In this document: positions 47,503 to 53,743 of the stretch, piece by piece
How positions within the stretch are numbered: the first letter of the stretch is position 1
Layout of the letters: each line of letters opens with the position of its first letter
Assembly: GCF_033705735.1 (NCBI RefSeq)
Contig: NZ_CP131130.1
Coordinates: 499,001 to 563,000, forward strand
Reading direction: 5' to 3'
Length of the DNA: 64,000 nt
From: Shinella zoogloeoides
Lineage (GTDB): Bacteria > Pseudomonadota > Alphaproteobacteria > Rhizobiales > Rhizobiaceae
The notes under the pieces: generated by a model
Told to the model about the DNA's origin: nothing
What the model saw: only the letters and a program-made list of their open reading frames with translations
Databases searched by the model: none
Made by a program: the position numbers and the translations under genes

Positions 47503-48096
47503 TCAACACTCCTCAGCCCTTCGCCGCCCATGCTCATCCCCGTACATTGCCAGATAATCCCGCAGCTCCGCCGAGCCGAGACCGATGGCCTCGAGGATTT
47601 CGCGGGCGAAGGTGGCGGGTGCCGCGCCGGAGGCGGTGATGACGCCGCGGTCGTTCACTGCCTGCGGCTGGTCGCGGTAATGCGCCGCGCCGCGATAGTC
47701 CGGCACGAGCTTGCCGAGCTGGCCGGGATAGTTGCCGGTATGCGCCCGGGTATCGAACAGGCCGAGGCGGGCAAATTCCAGCGTGGCGTCGCAGATCGCC
47801 GCCACCGGCTTGCCGGCGCTGACGAAACGCCCGACCGGAGCCGAGAGGTCGGGCGCCGCGCCGGATTGCCATATCGTGCCGCCGCACACGACCAGCACGT
47901 CGAAATCGGCGGGCATGGCGGCTTCCGCCTTGCCGGCGGATTTGACGGCGAGGCCGCCGAGCGAGGTGACGTCGGCCCCGCCGGGCGTCAGCACCACGGT
48001 CTCCGCCCCGCAGTCGCCCCGCGCGGTCGCCATCAGGAGGGCGCATTCCCAGTCCGCGTAGCCTTCCGTCAGCACGATTGCCAGTCGCTTCGCCAT
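47503..48096 (-). CDS. DJ-1/PfpI family protein
   Basis: 197 residues. The nucleophilic cysteine lies in the elbow AAICDATLEFARLG, with the family's VLTEGYADWE and VLVVCGGTIWQ near the N-terminus. Members include glyoxalase III, deglycase and chaperone proteins; the activity of this one is unknown. GGAGG stands three to seven bases upstream of the ATG. It begins 16 bases after the GNAT stop, so it belongs to the same operon and under the same leader. Confidence 0.9.
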   Translation of the reverse strand: MAKRLAIVLTEGYADWECALLMATARGDCGAETVVLTPGGADVTSLGGLAVKSAGKAEAAMPADFDVLVVCGGTIWQSGAAPDLSAPVGRFVSAGKPVAAICDATLEFARLGLFDTRAHTGNYPGQLGKLVPDYRGAAHYRDQPQAVNDRGVITASGAAPATFAREILEAIGLGSAELRDYLAMYGDEHGRRRAEEC

Positions 48097-48112
48097 GCCG
48101 GCCTCCGTCGCT

Positions 48113-48613
48113 TCAGCCCAATGCCTGGACGTAGCGCATACCCGTCACCGGGCCGGCGCGGAAGTTCATCTGCTCGTAGAAGCGGTGCGCGCCGAAATTG
48201 CCGGTCGCCGCGCTCACCGAGAGGTAGCCGCAGCCGGAGATGCGGGCATGCTCGCGGGCGCGGGAAACGAGATGGCGGCCGATGCCGTGGCCGCGATGGC
48301 CGTCGCGCACGAAGATCTGGTGCAGCTCCATGCCGCGCACGCCTTCCATGGCGCGGTACATCGGCACCATCAGCGCGTAGCCGATCAGCCGGCCGCCGGC
48401 TTCCGCGACGAGGGCGGTGATCCAGGGATGGGTGCCGAAGAGGTCACGGTCGAGGTCGACGGCGGTGATCTTCGCGGTGTCGCCGTGGCATTCGGCGTGC
48501 AGCGCGATCATGTCGAGTATCTGCTGCAGGTCGCCCTGGCGCGCGGCGCGGATGGTCAGCATCGGCGGGCGTTCGACGGCGTGGGGATCGAGCTTGATGA
48601 CGGTATTCAGCAT
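48113..48613 (-). CDS. GNAT family N-acetyltransferase
   Basis: 166 residues. The acetyl-CoA-binding motif A is VRDGHRGHGIGRHLVSRARE, and the C-terminal motif NFGAHRFYEQMNFRAGPVTG is typical. The acceptor substrate cannot be predicted. The ATG at 48613 has AAGGAG seven bases upstream. Transcription appears to begin well upstream, passing a short aromatic-rich leader peptide and a terminator hairpin (48650-48754), so expression is probably attenuated. pfpI follows 16 bases later. Confidence 0.9.
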   Translation of the reverse strand: MLNTVIKLDPHAVERPPMLTIRAARQGDLQQILDMIALHAECHGDTAKITAVDLDRDLFGTHPWITALVAEAGGRLIGYALMVPMYRAMEGVRGMELHQIFVRDGHRGHGIGRHLVSRAREHARISGCGYLSVSAATGNFGAHRFYEQMNFRAGPVTGMRYVQALG

Positions 48614-48649
48614 TTCGGGCTCCTTGGTTTTCGTGCCATCAGGTGCCCT

Positions 48650-48681
48650 AAAACAACAAAGCCGCCTGATGGCGGCTTGTT
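48650..48681 (-). terminator. Attenuator terminator hairpin upstream of the GNAT gene
   Basis: On the minus strand AACAAGCCGCC (48681-48671), loop ATCA, GGCGGC (48666-48661), followed by TTTGTTGTTTT. It stands 36 bases before the GNAT start and 22 bases after the leader-peptide stop. The arm AACAAGCCGC can instead pair with GCGGCTGTT (48700-48692). Confidence 0.7.
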
Positions 48682-48703
48682 GACATGATCGAACAGCCGC
48701 TCC

Positions 48704-48754
48704 TTATCGGAACAGCCAAAAATACGTTGCGGCGATGTGCGTGCTCTTGATCAT
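48704..48754 (-). CDS. Leader peptide MIKSTHIAATYFWLFR (putative attenuator)
   Basis: A 16-codon frame from ATG at 48754 to TAA at 48706-48704. It ends in Tyr-Phe-Trp-Leu-Phe-Arg, an aromatic cluster typical of leader peptides that sense charged aromatic tRNAs. GGGAG stands 12 bases upstream, a rather long spacing. GCCGC in its Ala codons and AUCG can pair with the segment GCGG...CGAU after the stop, giving the classical 1:2 / 2:3 / 3:4 alternatives. It has not been matched to a known leader. Confidence 0.6.
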   Translation of the reverse strand: MIKSTHIAATYFWLFR

Positions 48755-48832
48755 GATCGCGATATTCTCCCTTTCGTGCCGTTTGTCAACCGGCTTTCTT
48801 ACGGAAAGAGGAAGGATGAAAGCGAAGGCCGG

Positions 48833-49288
48833 TCAGGCCTTCGCTTCCTCCGTGCCGGCCGCGGATTGCCCTTCCGCGGGGCCGGCCTGTTGGGTGTCGT
48901 CGATGCCCAGCCGCTCCTTGATGGCGCGGCGGATCTCCTCTTCGATCGCGTCGCGCTGCTCGGGTGGCAGCGCGGCGAGGCTCTCCTCGGTGAGGCCCAT
49001 CGATTCGAGCAGCTCCTTGCGCAGGCGCTCGATCGGGTTCATCTTCGAAAGCTCCATGAAATCGGAGAGAAGCCCCTCGCTCTCCCGCTCGGCCTTCTCC
49101 TGCTTGTTGACCCACAGCGCATTGGCAAGGCCGGAAGGCATGGTGGAGGAGGTCTCCACCGTCGGGATGTTGCGTTTCCACGCGCCGCCGCCATCGCCCA
49201 TGCCATTGGAAAGGCTGTCGCCAGCGCCGGCGGCGGGCCGCTGCCGGCCGAGCGCATAGGCGGAAAGCATGTTGCCGTCGATCTTCAT
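48833..49288 (-). CDS. Hypothetical cytoplasmic protein, charged and helical
   Basis: 151 residues from ATG at 49288 (GGGAG seven bases upstream). The N-terminal third is Gly/Ser-rich and probably disordered. The middle is strongly helical (KQEKAERESEGLLSDFMELS, NPIERLRKELLESMGLTEES) and the C-terminus is acidic/Gln/Ala-rich. It has no signal peptide and no cysteine. The family is not recognised, though proteins of this shape are common in rhizobia. The ATG of the divergent-side ABC gene lies on the same strand further upstream, 62 bases after its stop. Confidence 0.65.
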   Translation of the reverse strand: MKIDGNMLSAYALGRQRPAAGAGDSLSNGMGDGGGAWKRNIPTVETSSTMPSGLANALWVNKQEKAERESEGLLSDFMELSKMNPIERLRKELLESMGLTEESLAALPPEQRDAIEEEIRRAIKERLGIDDTQQAGPAEGQSAAGTEEAKA

Positions 49289-49350
49289 GAAAGGCTCCCT
49301 CGAATTCCTTTGGGAAACCATTAGCGGTTGCGGCTTTTGCGAGACTTGTC

Positions 49351-51027
49351 TCAGGTCTCGCTCTCGATGCGCCCGGCGCCGAGGGTGACGACGTGGTCGA
49401 GGGGGGCGATCACGCCTTTCCGGTGGGTGACGGCAAGGATCGTCACGTCGCCGGCAAGGCTGCGGATATGCTGCATGATCTCCGCCTCCGTCGCCTCGTC
49501 CAGCGCCGAGCTCGCCTCGTCGAGGAAGAGGAACTGCGGATCGGCATAGAGCGCCCGGGCGATGGCGATGCGCTGGCGCTCGCCGCCGGAGAGCTTCATA
49601 CCCCGCTCGCCGACTATGGTCTCGAAACCGTCGGGCAGGGCCTCGACGAAGGCGAGGATCGCCGCCTTCTCCGCCGCGCGCCGCAGCCGCTCCGGGTCCA
49701 TCGGCCGGCCGAGCGCGATGTTGACGGCGAGCGTGTCGTTGAGCAGCGTCGGCTCCTGCGGCACGATGCCGACGGCGGTGTACCAGTCGCGCTGGGAGAC
49801 GGCTTCGAGGTCCATGCCATCGACGGCGATGCGGCCCGAGGCGGGGCTGAGCGATTTGAGGGCGAGGCGCAGCAGCGTCGACTTGCCCGAGCCGGTTTCG
49901 CCGACGAGATAGGTGATGCGCCCGCGCTCCGCCGAAAAGCTGATATCCGCGACGCCCCGGCCGTTTTCATGGGCATAGGAGACCCTCTCGAAGGCGAGGC
50001 GGCCGTCTCGCGGCAAGAAGCCGCCGGGCGTTACGGCATCCTCTTCCTCCGGCGCGGCCCAGATGCGGGCGAGCGGCAGCAGCGAGGCCCGGGCGCGCAC
50101 CACGTCGTCCAGCGCATGGCCGATCATCTCGAAGGGCATGTTGAGCTGGAGCAGCAGCGTGTTGAAGAGGACGAGGTCGCCGACGCTGAGCTCGCCCGCC
50201 CGGTAGCGCGGCAGGAGCAGGAGGAAGGTGACGACGAATTGCAGCGCCAGTCCCGCGCCGAGCACCGCGCTGTAGCCGATGCGGCGGCGGCAGAAGGCGG
50301 CCCAGTTGTCGCGCTCCTCGCGGGCCTTGTCGGCAAAGCGCGCCTGCATCCAGCCGTGGCTGCCGAAATGGCGCAGCGTCTCCATCGCCGCCATGGCGTT
50401 GCCGACGAATTTCGCATTCTCCTGCCCGGCCTCGATGGCCGCGTCGAGGAAGCGGCGCGTGCGGTGGTTGGCAAGGGCGGTGAGGGCGACGAAGCCGGTG
50501 CCGTAGACGATGACGATCAGCACGACCTCGATATTGATCGTCGCCCCCAGCATGGCGAGCGCGAGCACGATCTGCGTCGTGCCCGGAATGAAGACGATGA
50601 GGCCGAGCTGCACGAGCGTCATCAGCGCGCCCTGTCCGCGCCGCCGCGCGCCTTCGATCTCGGCCGGGTTGTGCTCGACGAAGAAGCCGGCCGTCTTCCT
50701 CAGCAGGCGGTCGAACAGGCTGGTGCTGGCGATGAAGCTGAGGTTCTCCGCGCTCATGTAGGAGAGATACTGCACCATATGCTGCAGCGCCGCCGCGATG
50801 CCGATGAGCAGGGCATAGACGACGAGGCCGGCGGCCAGTCCCTCGGCGAACCGGTCGGCGGCCATGGTGTCGATGAGGCGCGAGAAGAGATAGGGCGCGG
50901 CGACGGCGGAAACGGCCGAAAGAAAGACGATGACCGCGACCAGCGCCAGAAGGCCGCGCGAGGCGCGCCCGTAATTGGCAAGGATGATCTGCACCGGCGC
51001 GGCGATCAGCCGCCAGTCGTCTTTCAT
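49351..51027 (-). CDS. ABC exporter, fused permease-ATPase
   Basis: 558 residues. A six-helix membrane domain occupies about 1-310 and an ATPase domain about 335-558: Walker A VGETGSGKSTLLRL, Q-loop GIVPQEPTLLND, signature LSGGERQRIAIARAL, Walker B FLFLDEASSALDE and the switch His in AVTHRKGV. This is a half-transporter that works as a dimer; the substrate may be a lipid, peptide or drug. GGGAG lies six bases upstream of the ATG at 51027. Confidence 0.93.
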   Translation of the reverse strand: MKDDWRLIAAPVQIILANYGRASRGLLALVAVIVFLSAVSAVAAPYLFSRLIDTMAADRFAEGLAAGLVVYALLIGIAAALQHMVQYLSYMSAENLSFIASTSLFDRLLRKTAGFFVEHNPAEIEGARRRGQGALMTLVQLGLIVFIPGTTQIVLALAMLGATINIEVVLIVIVYGTGFVALTALANHRTRRFLDAAIEAGQENAKFVGNAMAAMETLRHFGSHGWMQARFADKAREERDNWAAFCRRRIGYSAVLGAGLALQFVVTFLLLLPRYRAGELSVGDLVLFNTLLLQLNMPFEMIGHALDDVVRARASLLPLARIWAAPEEEDAVTPGGFLPRDGRLAFERVSYAHENGRGVADISFSAERGRITYLVGETGSGKSTLLRLALKSLSPASGRIAVDGMDLEAVSQRDWYTAVGIVPQEPTLLNDTLAVNIALGRPMDPERLRRAAEKAAILAFVEALPDGFETIVGERGMKLSGGERQRIAIARALYADPQFLFLDEASSALDEATEAEIMQHIRSLAGDVTILAVTHRKGVIAPLDHVVTLGAGRIESET

Positions 51028-51409: not shown

Positions 51410-53743
51410 TTACGGCAGCGTATAGGCGATCACGTAATCCCCCGGCTTCGTGCCCACCGAGCCGTGGCCGCCGGCGACGATCAGCACATATTGCTTGTCG
51501 CCGACCGTGTAGGTCATGGGCGTCGCCTGTCCGCCGGCGGGAAGGCGGGCTTCCCAGAGCTGGCGGCCGGTGGTCACGTCATAGGCGCGCAGATAATCGT
51601 CCACCGCCGCGCCGAGGAAGGCGACGCCGCCCTTGGTCATCATCGGGCCGCCGATGCCGGGCACGCCCACCTTGAAGGGCAGCGGCAGCGGCGTCATGTC
51701 CATGACCGTGCCGTTCTTGTGCTTCCAGGCGATCTTGCCGGTGGCAAGGTCAGCGCCCGCGACATAGCCCCATGGCGGCGCCTGGCAGGGAATGCCGAGC
51801 GGTCCGAGGAACGGGCCCATATAGACGCCGTAGGGCGCGCCGTCGTTGCGGTTGAGGCCCTGTTCGGAACCCTTCTCGTCCTGCCCCTTCGGCGGCACCT
51901 GGTCGCGCGGCACGAGGCGGGAGGTGAAGGCGAGGTAGGTCGGCATGCCGAACATCACCTGCCGCTCGGGATCGACCGCGACCGAGCCCCAGTTGAACGT
52001 GCCGAAATTGCCGGGATAGACGATGGTGCCCTCAAGCGAGGGCGGCGTGTAGCGGCCCTCGTATTTCATCGACAGGAAGTCGATGCGGCACATCATCTGG
52101 TCGAACATGGTGATGCCCCACATGTTCTTCTCGGTCAGCGGATCGGGCATGAAGGTGAGGTCGGAGACCGGCTGGGTCGGCGCGGAGAAATCCTCCGGGA
52201 TCGCGCCGGTCGGGGCGGGCACTTCCTTGACCGGGATGATCGGCTCGCCGGTGCGCCGGTCGAGCACGTAGATGTCGCCCTGCTTGGTGGCGCCGACGAG
52301 GGCGGGAACGGTCGTGCCGTCCCGGGTGATGTCGATCAGCGCCGGCTGGGCGGGCACGTCCATGTCCCACAGGTCATGATGCACCGTCTGGCGCACCCAG
52401 CGCAGCGCGCCGGTCTTGATGTCGAGCGCCACGATGGAGGAGGAGAACTTCTCCACATTCTCGCTGCGCCCCATGCCGAGCTGGTCCGGCACCTGGTTGC
52501 CGAGCGGGACATAGACGAGGCCGAGCGCCTCGTCATAACTGAACACCGACCAGGAATTCGGCGAGTTGACGGTGTAGACCTGCCCCTCGGGCAGCGGCGT
52601 CGTCACGTCCGGATTGCCGGAATCCCAGTTCCAGACCAGCGCGCCGGAATTGACGTCGAAGGCGCGGATGACGCCGGACTGTTCCTTGGTGGAATAGTTG
52701 TCGTTCACCGCCCCGCCGATGATGATCTTGCCGTCGGTGATGACGGGCGGCGAGGTGGAGTAGTAGTAGCCGGCCGGATTGTAGGGCATGCCCTTTTCGA
52801 GATGCAGCACGCCGTTCTCGGCAAAGCCGGTGCAGACGTCGCCGGTCTCGGCGTCCAGCGCGATCAGCCGGGCGTCGGAGGTCGGCAGGTAGACGCGCGT
52901 GGCGCAGGCCGTGCCGGCGGTGGCGGCGGGGTCGGCATAATATGTCACGCCGCGGCAGGTCTGGTGCTGGCGGTCCGGGTTCATGCCGGAATTGGAATCG
53001 TATTTCCATTTCTCCTTGCCGCTTGCCGCGTCGAGCGCGATCGCCCAGTTGTGCGGGGTGCACATGTAGAGCGTGTCGCCGACCTTCAGCGGCGTCACCT
53101 GATAGGTGGTCTCGCCGACGTCCGCCGGCTGCTTCACGTCGCCGGTCTGGTACTGCCAGGCGACCTTCAGCGTGGAGACGTTATCGGCATTGATCTGGTC
53201 GAGCGGCGAATAGCGCTGGCCGTATTGCGTGCGGCCGTACTGGTGCCATTCGCCGGCCGGCACGTTGCCGCCGAGCGCGGGCGTCGCATTGGCGATCTCC
53301 TTCGGCAGGCTGCCGGCAAGGTCGTGCGGGTCCTGCGTCATCGAATAGCCGGCGACCGCGATGGCGACGAGGACGGCGACGGCAAGCGGCATCGCCGAGG
53401 CGGGGTAGGGCGTGCCGGTGGGGCTCGCAAAACCGAGCGGCCGGCGGATGGCCGGCAGCATCAGCCACAGGCCGATGAGCACGATGACGCCGCCGCGCGG
53501 GCCGAGCTGCCACCAGTCGAAGCCGACCTCCCAGACCGCCCAGCCGAGCGAGCCGAGGACGATGAGGGCATAGAGCCAGAGCGCCGCCGCCGAGCGGCGG
53601 AAGAGCAGGGCGGCGGTGACGAGGAAGGCAAGGCCGGTGACGAGATAATAGGGGCTGCCGCCGAGCGACAGCAGCCACCCGCCTCCGCCCGTCAGCACCA
53701 GTCCTATGATGGTGAAGAGGACAGCGGTCAGCGTGAGCAACAT
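51410..53743 (-). CDS. gcd: Membrane-bound PQQ-dependent glucose dehydrogenase
   Basis: 777 residues, normal for Gcd. Five N-terminal membrane helices (about 1-145) anchor the enzyme. A PQQ-type beta-propeller follows with GEWHQYGRTQYGQRYSPLDQ, TPLKVGDTLYMCTPHNW, VHHDLWDMDVPAQP and the C-terminal GHGSVGTKPGDYVIAYTLP. The enzyme oxidises glucose and related aldoses in the periplasm and feeds electrons to ubiquinone. No PQQ-synthesis genes are in the window. CGGAG stands six bases upstream of the ATG. Confidence 0.95.
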   Translation of the reverse strand: MLLTLTAVLFTIIGLVLTGGGGWLLSLGGSPYYLVTGLAFLVTAALLFRRSAAALWLYALIVLGSLGWAVWEVGFDWWQLGPRGGVIVLIGLWLMLPAIRRPLGFASPTGTPYPASAMPLAVAVLVAIAVAGYSMTQDPHDLAGSLPKEIANATPALGGNVPAGEWHQYGRTQYGQRYSPLDQINADNVSTLKVAWQYQTGDVKQPADVGETTYQVTPLKVGDTLYMCTPHNWAIALDAASGKEKWKYDSNSGMNPDRQHQTCRGVTYYADPAATAGTACATRVYLPTSDARLIALDAETGDVCTGFAENGVLHLEKGMPYNPAGYYYSTSPPVITDGKIIIGGAVNDNYSTKEQSGVIRAFDVNSGALVWNWDSGNPDVTTPLPEGQVYTVNSPNSWSVFSYDEALGLVYVPLGNQVPDQLGMGRSENVEKFSSSIVALDIKTGALRWVRQTVHHDLWDMDVPAQPALIDITRDGTTVPALVGATKQGDIYVLDRRTGEPIIPVKEVPAPTGAIPEDFSAPTQPVSDLTFMPDPLTEKNMWGITMFDQMMCRIDFLSMKYEGRYTPPSLEGTIVYPGNFGTFNWGSVAVDPERQVMFGMPTYLAFTSRLVPRDQVPPKGQDEKGSEQGLNRNDGAPYGVYMGPFLGPLGIPCQAPPWGYVAGADLATGKIAWKHKNGTVMDMTPLPLPFKVGVPGIGGPMMTKGGVAFLGAAVDDYLRAYDVTTGRQLWEARLPAGGQATPMTYTVGDKQYVLIVAGGHGSVGTKPGDYVIAYTLP

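Follow-up and report, generated by a model that had tools for sequence, protein, structure and literature searches.

Why should the gene for a GNAT acetyltransferase lie behind a 16-codon reading frame that carries adjacent tyrosine, phenylalanine and tryptophan codons and is followed by a terminator? We examined this question in a 64,000-nucleotide stretch of the 5.79-Mb genome of Shinella zoogloeoides, a member of the Rhizobiaceae (contig NZ_CP131130.1, positions 499,001 to 563,000; the whole stretch is hereafter called the window). The first-pass annotation of this DNA had proposed an attenuator, and when checked on the sequence the leader ORF, aromatic codons, antiterminator core and terminator were located where it had placed them (Table 1). 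Comparison of codons, spacing and terminator among related genomes leads us to read the GNAT leader, with a probability of about 0.86, as a ribosome-mediated transcription attenuator that would act as a sensor of any of three aromatic amino acids.

Both strands of the 64-kb window were scanned for ATG-initiated ORFs of 8-25 codons with three adjacent aromatic codons and a terminator behind them. The GNAT leader was the only instance, and the same scan on first-order Markov sequences gave none in each of 60. Relative to dinucleotide shuffles, the leader fold showed added stability (z = -2.47), which 3 of 200 shuffles matched. An Rfam search of window positions 48000-49400 returned four matches attributable to chance (E values up to 5) and no Trp, Phe, His or other leader or RcsR1; likewise, three further GNAT loci (L016, L077 and L084) had no match at the gathering thresholds.

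Table 1. Features of the GNAT leader and of the genes behind it, in window coordinates.
Feature	Position	Strand	Basis or remark
-35 element TTGACA	48784..48789	-	conserved upstream of leader ATG
Likely -10 element AATATC	48761..48766	-	17 nt 3' of TTGACA
Leader ORF MIKSTHIAATYFWLFR + TAA, 16 codons and stop	48754-48704	-	sequence
Regulatory codons TAT TTT TGG (Tyr-Phe-Trp)	48716..48724	-	sequence and conservation
Segment 2 GCGGCTGTT, antiterminator 5' strand	48700-48692	-	GCGG starts 3 nt past stop
GATCAT, complement of leader start ATGATC (48754-48749)	48685..48690	-	pairing count and swap test
Segment 3 AACAAGCCGC, antiterminator 3' strand	48681-48672	-	sequence
Segment 3 as AACAAGCCGCC, antiterminator 3' strand and terminator 5' strand	48671..48681	-	
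Terminator AACAAGCCGCC / loop ATCA / segment 4 GGCGGC	48681-48661	-	hairpin reported by terminator scan
T tract TTTGTTGTTTT after terminator	48660-48650	-	sequence
Segment 5 CCTGATGGC, complement of GCCATCAGG (48673-48665) spanning terminator loop	48635..48643	-	
GGGCACC, likely partner of GNAT ribosome-binding site	48642..48648	-	swap test and accessibility
GNAT ribosome-binding site AAGGAG and the CCC after it	48617..48625	-	sequence
GNAT acetyltransferase gene, 166 aa	48613-48113	-	Pfam PF00583, 1.8e-17
DJ-1/PfpI gene, second in unit here	48096-47503	-	PF01965, 4.1e-20

To follow the leader through the family, GNAT was searched at E <= 1e-20 and found in 68 of 297 Rhizobiaceae genomes (23 of 109 genera). 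Together with 14 further Shinella loci these gave a set of 82; an unrelated partial match (L046) was left out, and the set includes repeats: L001 is the window itself, and some Shinella loci come from genomes already present, for example L033 with L005 and L038 with L006. A leader ORF with an aromatic cluster was found upstream of GNAT in 82/82 loci, both by a loose scan and by a stricter one (13-20 codons; cluster YF[WTS], WYF or WFYY; TTGAC 33-38 nt upstream). Leader length was 15-17 codons throughout, and all 82 loci had the same order of TTGAC, leader ATG, aromatic cluster near the end, stop, segment 2, terminator and GNAT. The leader was kept even before a GNAT protein with 43% identity. 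The proposal that ribosome-mediated attenuation tied to aromatic aminoacyl-tRNA operates before GNAT is well supported by this comparison within the Rhizobiaceae, with leaders in 82/82 loci.

The clusters were of the types YFW (70 leaders), WYF (10), WFYY (1) and YF without W (1); the last, in L076, is the one leader lacking Trp, which was present in the other 81. The Phe codon was TTT in every cluster, and the Tyr codons were TAT (78) or TAC (5). Across six window genes, by comparison, TTT accounted for 7 of 75 Phe codons. The distance from cluster to stop was three codons in 71 loci and four in 11, and the GCGG of segment 2 began 1-3 nt past the leader stop in 82/82. The residues C-terminal to the cluster differed (LFR, AYL, TLLP, TLHS, ANLP, GYR). 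Such shifts in the order and content of the cluster are expected if the codons are sensed. Among distant GNAT relatives, which were matched in 59 genomes and had an identity of at most 38% in 50 of them, 21 of the loci at this identity were scanned (L157-L177) and no comparable leader was found. A short aromatic ORF before one of these genes (L161) was judged spurious.

The -35 hexamer was TTGACA in 80/82 loci and TTGACT in 2/82. The first base of TTGAC lay 34-38 nt ahead of the leader ATG in all 82 loci; since the stricter scan demanded such spacing, this figure reflects a filter which every locus passed. The AATATC hexamer of the window was found in 25/82 loci, with variable sequence in the others, and a promoter scan of the window did not report the proposed leader promoter. 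With a spacer of normal length, the distance from TTGAC to ATG would have transcripts begin at the ATG or right next to it, so we infer from promoter spacing that the ORF is leaderless. For trpL of S. meliloti, published work puts the transcription start in the same place relative to the uORF (PMC7298713, PMC10117765). The GGGAG upstream of the leader had originally been taken for its ribosome site. A GGAG, AGGA or GAGG motif was present at -18 to -5 from the leader ATG in only 25/82 loci and lies inside the promoter spacer; given the leaderless geometry, GGGAG is better read as promoter spacer than as a ribosome site.

In the mechanism that these elements suggest, RNA polymerase would initiate on, or immediately beside, the start codon of the leaderless 16-codon ORF. 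With Tyr-, Phe- and Trp-tRNA all charged, the ribosome would proceed to the stop codon and cover segment 2, whereupon segments 3 and 4 would form the terminator and the RNA would end after about 106 nt. With any of the three charged tRNAs in short supply, the ribosome would stall on UAU-UUU-UGG and leave segment 2 free; segment 2 would then pair with segment 3, no terminator would form, and GNAT (here with pfpI) would be transcribed. A single leader would in this way be able to respond to three amino acids with a single codon for each. The ORF, its codons, their spacing, the terminator and segment 5 are established by comparison of the aligned loci. Stalling of the ribosome, termination and the response to aromatic shortage we infer from that arrangement.

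To examine the alternative structures, we used the 82 loci together with an alignment of 52 less redundant loci picked from them (alignment A2). The CCGCC/GGCGG hairpin was present in 82/82 loci and was followed by a T-rich tail (at least 6 T in the 12 nt past the hairpin) in 78/82. The predicted terminated RNA measured 102-113 nt, with a median of 106 nt for the 82 leaders. The antiterminator and the terminator are mutually exclusive, as segment 3 is common to both. In the 52 loci, the five core pairs between segments 2 and 3 formed in 98.5% of cells, and the two outermost pairs formed in 19-20 of the loci. Because the core pairs are nearly invariant, they provide no compensatory evidence for the antiterminator, and in A2 it did not rise above shuffles (79.7 versus 79.3% paired; covariation 67/500). 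Exchange of partners among loci weakened the antiterminator pairing in 2000/2000 permutations, yet only 25/52 loci did better than their row mean. Both the shuffle and the swap controls used here and below remove relatedness among loci only in part.

We also modelled the nascent RNA of the 52 loci, ending after segment 3, with a ribosome placed on either the aromatic codons or the stop codon. With the ribosome stalled at the aromatic codons, the pairing probability of segments 2 and 3 was above 0.5 in 52/52 loci; with the ribosome at the stop it was 0, as the spacing is such that the ribosome covers GCGG. When the ribosome was omitted, the probability was below 0.5 in 37/52, and this model suggests that termination would be the default state.

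Three other pairings within the leader were considered. The leader start ATGATC is complementary to the GATCAT behind segment 2, and 90.7% of 257 cells were paired; one cell, in L076, had changed on both sides, and 21 of 2000 swap permutations scored as well as the true partners. We rejected a local hairpin in which the final codons of the leader would pair with segment 2 (GGCUGUUCC/GGAGCGGCU). It was 80.8% paired, a level reached by 67 of 500 shuffles (covariation 158/500), and was not clearly above them. The pairing of AUCG-CCGC in the leader codons with GCGG...CGAU, which had been put forward for the window, turned out to be limited to a clade, with its leader sequence ATCGCCGC present in only 22/82 loci.

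Downstream of the terminator, the helix of segment 5 with the sequence across the terminator loop was paired in 92.0% of 464 cells of A2. It contained 35 cells changed on both sides compared with 12.4 in shuffles, a level that 0 of 500 shuffles reached, and slid versions of the helix were 25-53% paired. Exchange of partners among loci weakened the pairing in 2000/2000 permutations. Two of five measures were not above shuffles, namely double-change pairs (120/500) and further pair types (77/500). This comparison establishes a conserved fifth segment 3' of the terminator, whose predicted pairing with the terminator loop carries compensatory changes.

The GGGCACC element beside segment 5 was analyzed for pairing with the GNAT ribosome-binding site. 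None of 2000 swap permutations did as well as the true partners, and the ribosome site was less accessible than with a shuffled upstream segment in 47/52 loci (P = 1.3e-8). A count of contiguous pairs was weak, with 24% of shuffles reaching it and the ribosome site included in the best run in 30/52 loci. On these sequence measures, the GNAT ribosome site is apt to be masked by GGGCACC. At equilibrium the site was not clearly freed when pairing with segment 2 held segment 3 (30/52, P = 0.07), nor was its release distinguishable from that obtained with a shuffled loop (24/52, P = 0.48). A translational switch at equilibrium was therefore rejected. When folding stopped at the ribosome site, pairing of segment 4 and the loop with the downstream part exceeded that with a shuffled one in 52/52 loci; the shuffled parts also pair, so that the difference is one of 9.1 versus 6.3 expected pairs. 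In the full RNA at equilibrium, at least 4 expected pairs between segments 4 and 5 were seen in only 3/52. By these folding models, antitermination may free the GNAT ribosome site during transcription. Whether segment 5 and the sequestered ribosome site amount to a translational lock, such that accidental read-through would be poorly translated, we regard as an even bet.

These pairings also bear on the idea that the leader is an independent small RNA gene, complete with terminator, which merely adjoins GNAT and does not regulate it. In favour of this idea, PMC2573895 lists an independent small RNA candidate with promoter and terminator. Against it, segment 5 and the pairing at the ribosome site link the leader to the sequence that precedes GNAT. 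The promoter scan of the window found no separate GNAT promoter, a result that says little since the same scan missed the leader promoter. We consider a free-standing gene highly improbable.

A covariance model built from 48 GNAT leaders was run on 397 genomes of the order and 297 of the family. In the family run, 72 matches were obtained at E <= 1e-8, of which 68 lay before GNAT, as expected given that most of them had trained the model, and four were tyrS leaders (L139, L140, L141 and L142). Two of the four precede an intact tyrS, one (L141) a truncated tyrS, and in the last (L142) tyrS has been lost and the leader is a relic. Outside the family, Tyr-Tyr leaders were found before tyrS (L094, L095 and L096; E 1e-16 to 1e-17) and before prephenate dehydrogenase (L097, L098 and L099, E 1e-9 to 1e-13; L107, E 1e-4), and Tyr-Phe-Tyr-Tyr leaders before tyrS (L101, L102, L105 and L108; E 1e-4 to 1e-6). 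Within the family, a Trp-Trp-Trp leader was identified before trpE (L150, E 1e-4). Gene identities were checked for L097, L098, L099, L107, L140, L101 and L150, and the other tyrS genes were assigned by a tyrS search. Matches without a leader ORF, among the 30 loci that were read, look like plain terminators.

All 9 genomes with an intact leader-borne tyrS carry a second tyrS, which marks the leader-controlled gene as an accessory copy. Tyr control is not general for tyrS: among the 30 best-scoring tyrS loci (tyrS was matched in 194 of 199 genomes), 29 had no short ORF with two near Tyr codons, and the other, L233, had a short Tyr ORF without a terminator. The Tyr leaders resemble the GNAT leader in that they were found by its model and combine an ORF, a terminator and a gene; they differ in having Tyr-Tyr or Tyr-Phe-Tyr-Tyr codons and other genes, and some of the matches are at E 1e-4 to 1e-6. 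Wherever the function of the gene is known, the codons of the sister leader match it. No other observation speaks as strongly for the view that the GNAT leader likewise reads tRNA charging, in its case for all three aromatics.

The sister leaders with Tyr codons before tyrS and prephenate dehydrogenase speak against an arrest peptide, in which the nascent peptide would stall the ribosome on a drug or another ligand, or on slowed translation, and induce a resistance-like GNAT. Drug acetyltransferases do occur among the relatives and folds of GNAT, and the rarity of TTT in the six window genes would suit slow translation. The residues past the cluster vary and Trp changes sides, unlike a peptide that is read as a ligand-binding sequence. 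We judge an arrest peptide very unlikely.

An RNA from upstream of an acetyltransferase gene has been described in S. meliloti 2011. According to PMC2573895, sm145 is encoded in the interval separating SMc00108 from SMc00109 and is read in the same direction as these two genes; it has a sigma-70 promoter and a terminator, is predicted to be 100-120 nt long, appeared as two Northern bands of about 120 and 110 nt, and is listed as a small RNA gene. In the same report its level rose more than 6-fold in high salt and more than 2-fold when SDS or ethanol was present or the temperature was 37 degrees C, and fell in saturated cultures. PMC2873474 relists it as SmelC222, of the type mRNA leader (153 nt, 67% overlap), and PMC3511301 names SMc00108 as a putative acetyltransferase. 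In S. meliloti Ak57, the leader MIKNAPISSVYFWLFR stands before GNAT, with the gene upstream on the same strand. Set against this leader and the median length of 106 nt, the reported position, strand and size of sm145, upstream of SMc00108, make it likely to be the GNAT leader RNA. None of the increases reported for sm145 is a response to aromatic shortage, and they count against the attenuator reading. A search of the literature available without subscription found no description of the GNAT leader as an aromatic attenuator. Reading it as one gives a probable mechanism to an RNA so far known as the small RNA sm145 or as SmelC222, an unspecified mRNA leader.

The terminated leader could instead act mainly in trans, as a small RNA, a peptide or both, with attenuation as a secondary role, a proposal that is compatible with an attenuator. 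The listing of sm145 as a small RNA gene (PMC2573895) and of SmelC222 as an mRNA leader (PMC2873474), and the precedent of rnTrpL/peTrpL in S. meliloti (PMC7298713) speak for such a role. The leader is found directly before the same gene in 82/82 loci and its conserved parts are those that an attenuator needs, and a chiefly trans-acting function appears rather unlikely to us.

The controlled gene belongs to the GNAT superfamily by both domain and fold (PF00583; model pLDDT 88.0, pTM 0.81). The first-pass annotation had supposed that the enzymes might act on aromatic amines or amino acids. Among solved structures, those closest to GNAT in fold are thialysine and spermidine acetyltransferases, with little to separate the entries of the fold list. 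In the window, pfpI starts 16 nt past the GNAT stop, and a GNAT-pfpI operon had been named as the target; GNAT follows the leader in 82/82 loci, while pfpI directly follows GNAT in only 45/82, which leaves GNAT alone as the constant target. Aromatic control would be a strong and unexpected clue to the function of this acetyltransferase. One detailed scheme is a two-lock aromatic OR gate, in which the leader would sense a shortage of any aromatic aminoacyl-tRNA and also couple termination to translation: segment 4, freed by antitermination, would capture segment 5 and release the GNAT ribosome site during its transcription. GNAT, if of the thialysine/spermidine-acetyltransferase type, would then inactivate by N-acetylation an antimetabolite that limits charging of the aromatic tRNAs, in a regulon with accessory tyrosyl-tRNA synthetases controlled by similar switches. 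We offer this scheme as speculation and think it unlikely to hold as a whole.

Two neighbouring genes were also recorded. Upstream of the leader, 48833-49321 (minus strand) encodes a 162-aa protein that has no Pfam or NCBIfam family and is matched in 20/82 loci, mainly in Shinella. The other gene, for a PQQ-dependent dehydrogenase, precedes the GNAT unit both in the window (51410-53743, minus strand) and in S. meliloti Ak57 (L155:839-3172), where the annotation assigns it to the glucose/quinate/shikimate family. It could conceivably have a connection with aromatic metabolism.

Several known systems invite comparison. uORFC-8-2 (cysS, Rhodobacterales) and uORFC-13-1 (aroF, Acholeplasma) are described in PMC8632094 as predicted attenuators with amino-acid-matched uORFs; they represent the same kind of matched uORF as the GNAT leader, one of them aromatic, with other amino acids, genes and lineages. 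Another is trpL (rnTrpL) of S. meliloti and relatives, which has a leaderless uORF (PMC7298713, PMC10117765), as proposed here for the GNAT leader. It shares the aromatic codons just 5' of the stop, the GC-rich terminator and a segment complementary to the terminator loop; it differs in sensing Trp only and in controlling trpE. Adjacent Trp codons were present in the leader of each of 30 trpE loci (the best trpE matches; L178-L207), and in these loci a segment behind the terminator is complementary to the terminator loop and the 3' stem (swap test 0/2000; 20/30 loci better than the row mean). The trpL leader at L150:1517-1614 matches Rfam RcsR1 (RF02552); the GNAT leader has no Rfam match.

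The classical enterobacterial trp, phe and his attenuators rely on codons of a leader peptide and on alternative antiterminator and terminator structures, and the GNAT leader resembles them in both respects. It departs from them in having one codon for each of three amino acids instead of a run of a single residue, in being probably leaderless, and in having a target that is not biosynthetic. To our knowledge, the classical attenuator model includes no fifth segment. The fifth RNA segment common to the GNAT leader and to trpL of the same bacteria goes beyond that model and is directly testable.
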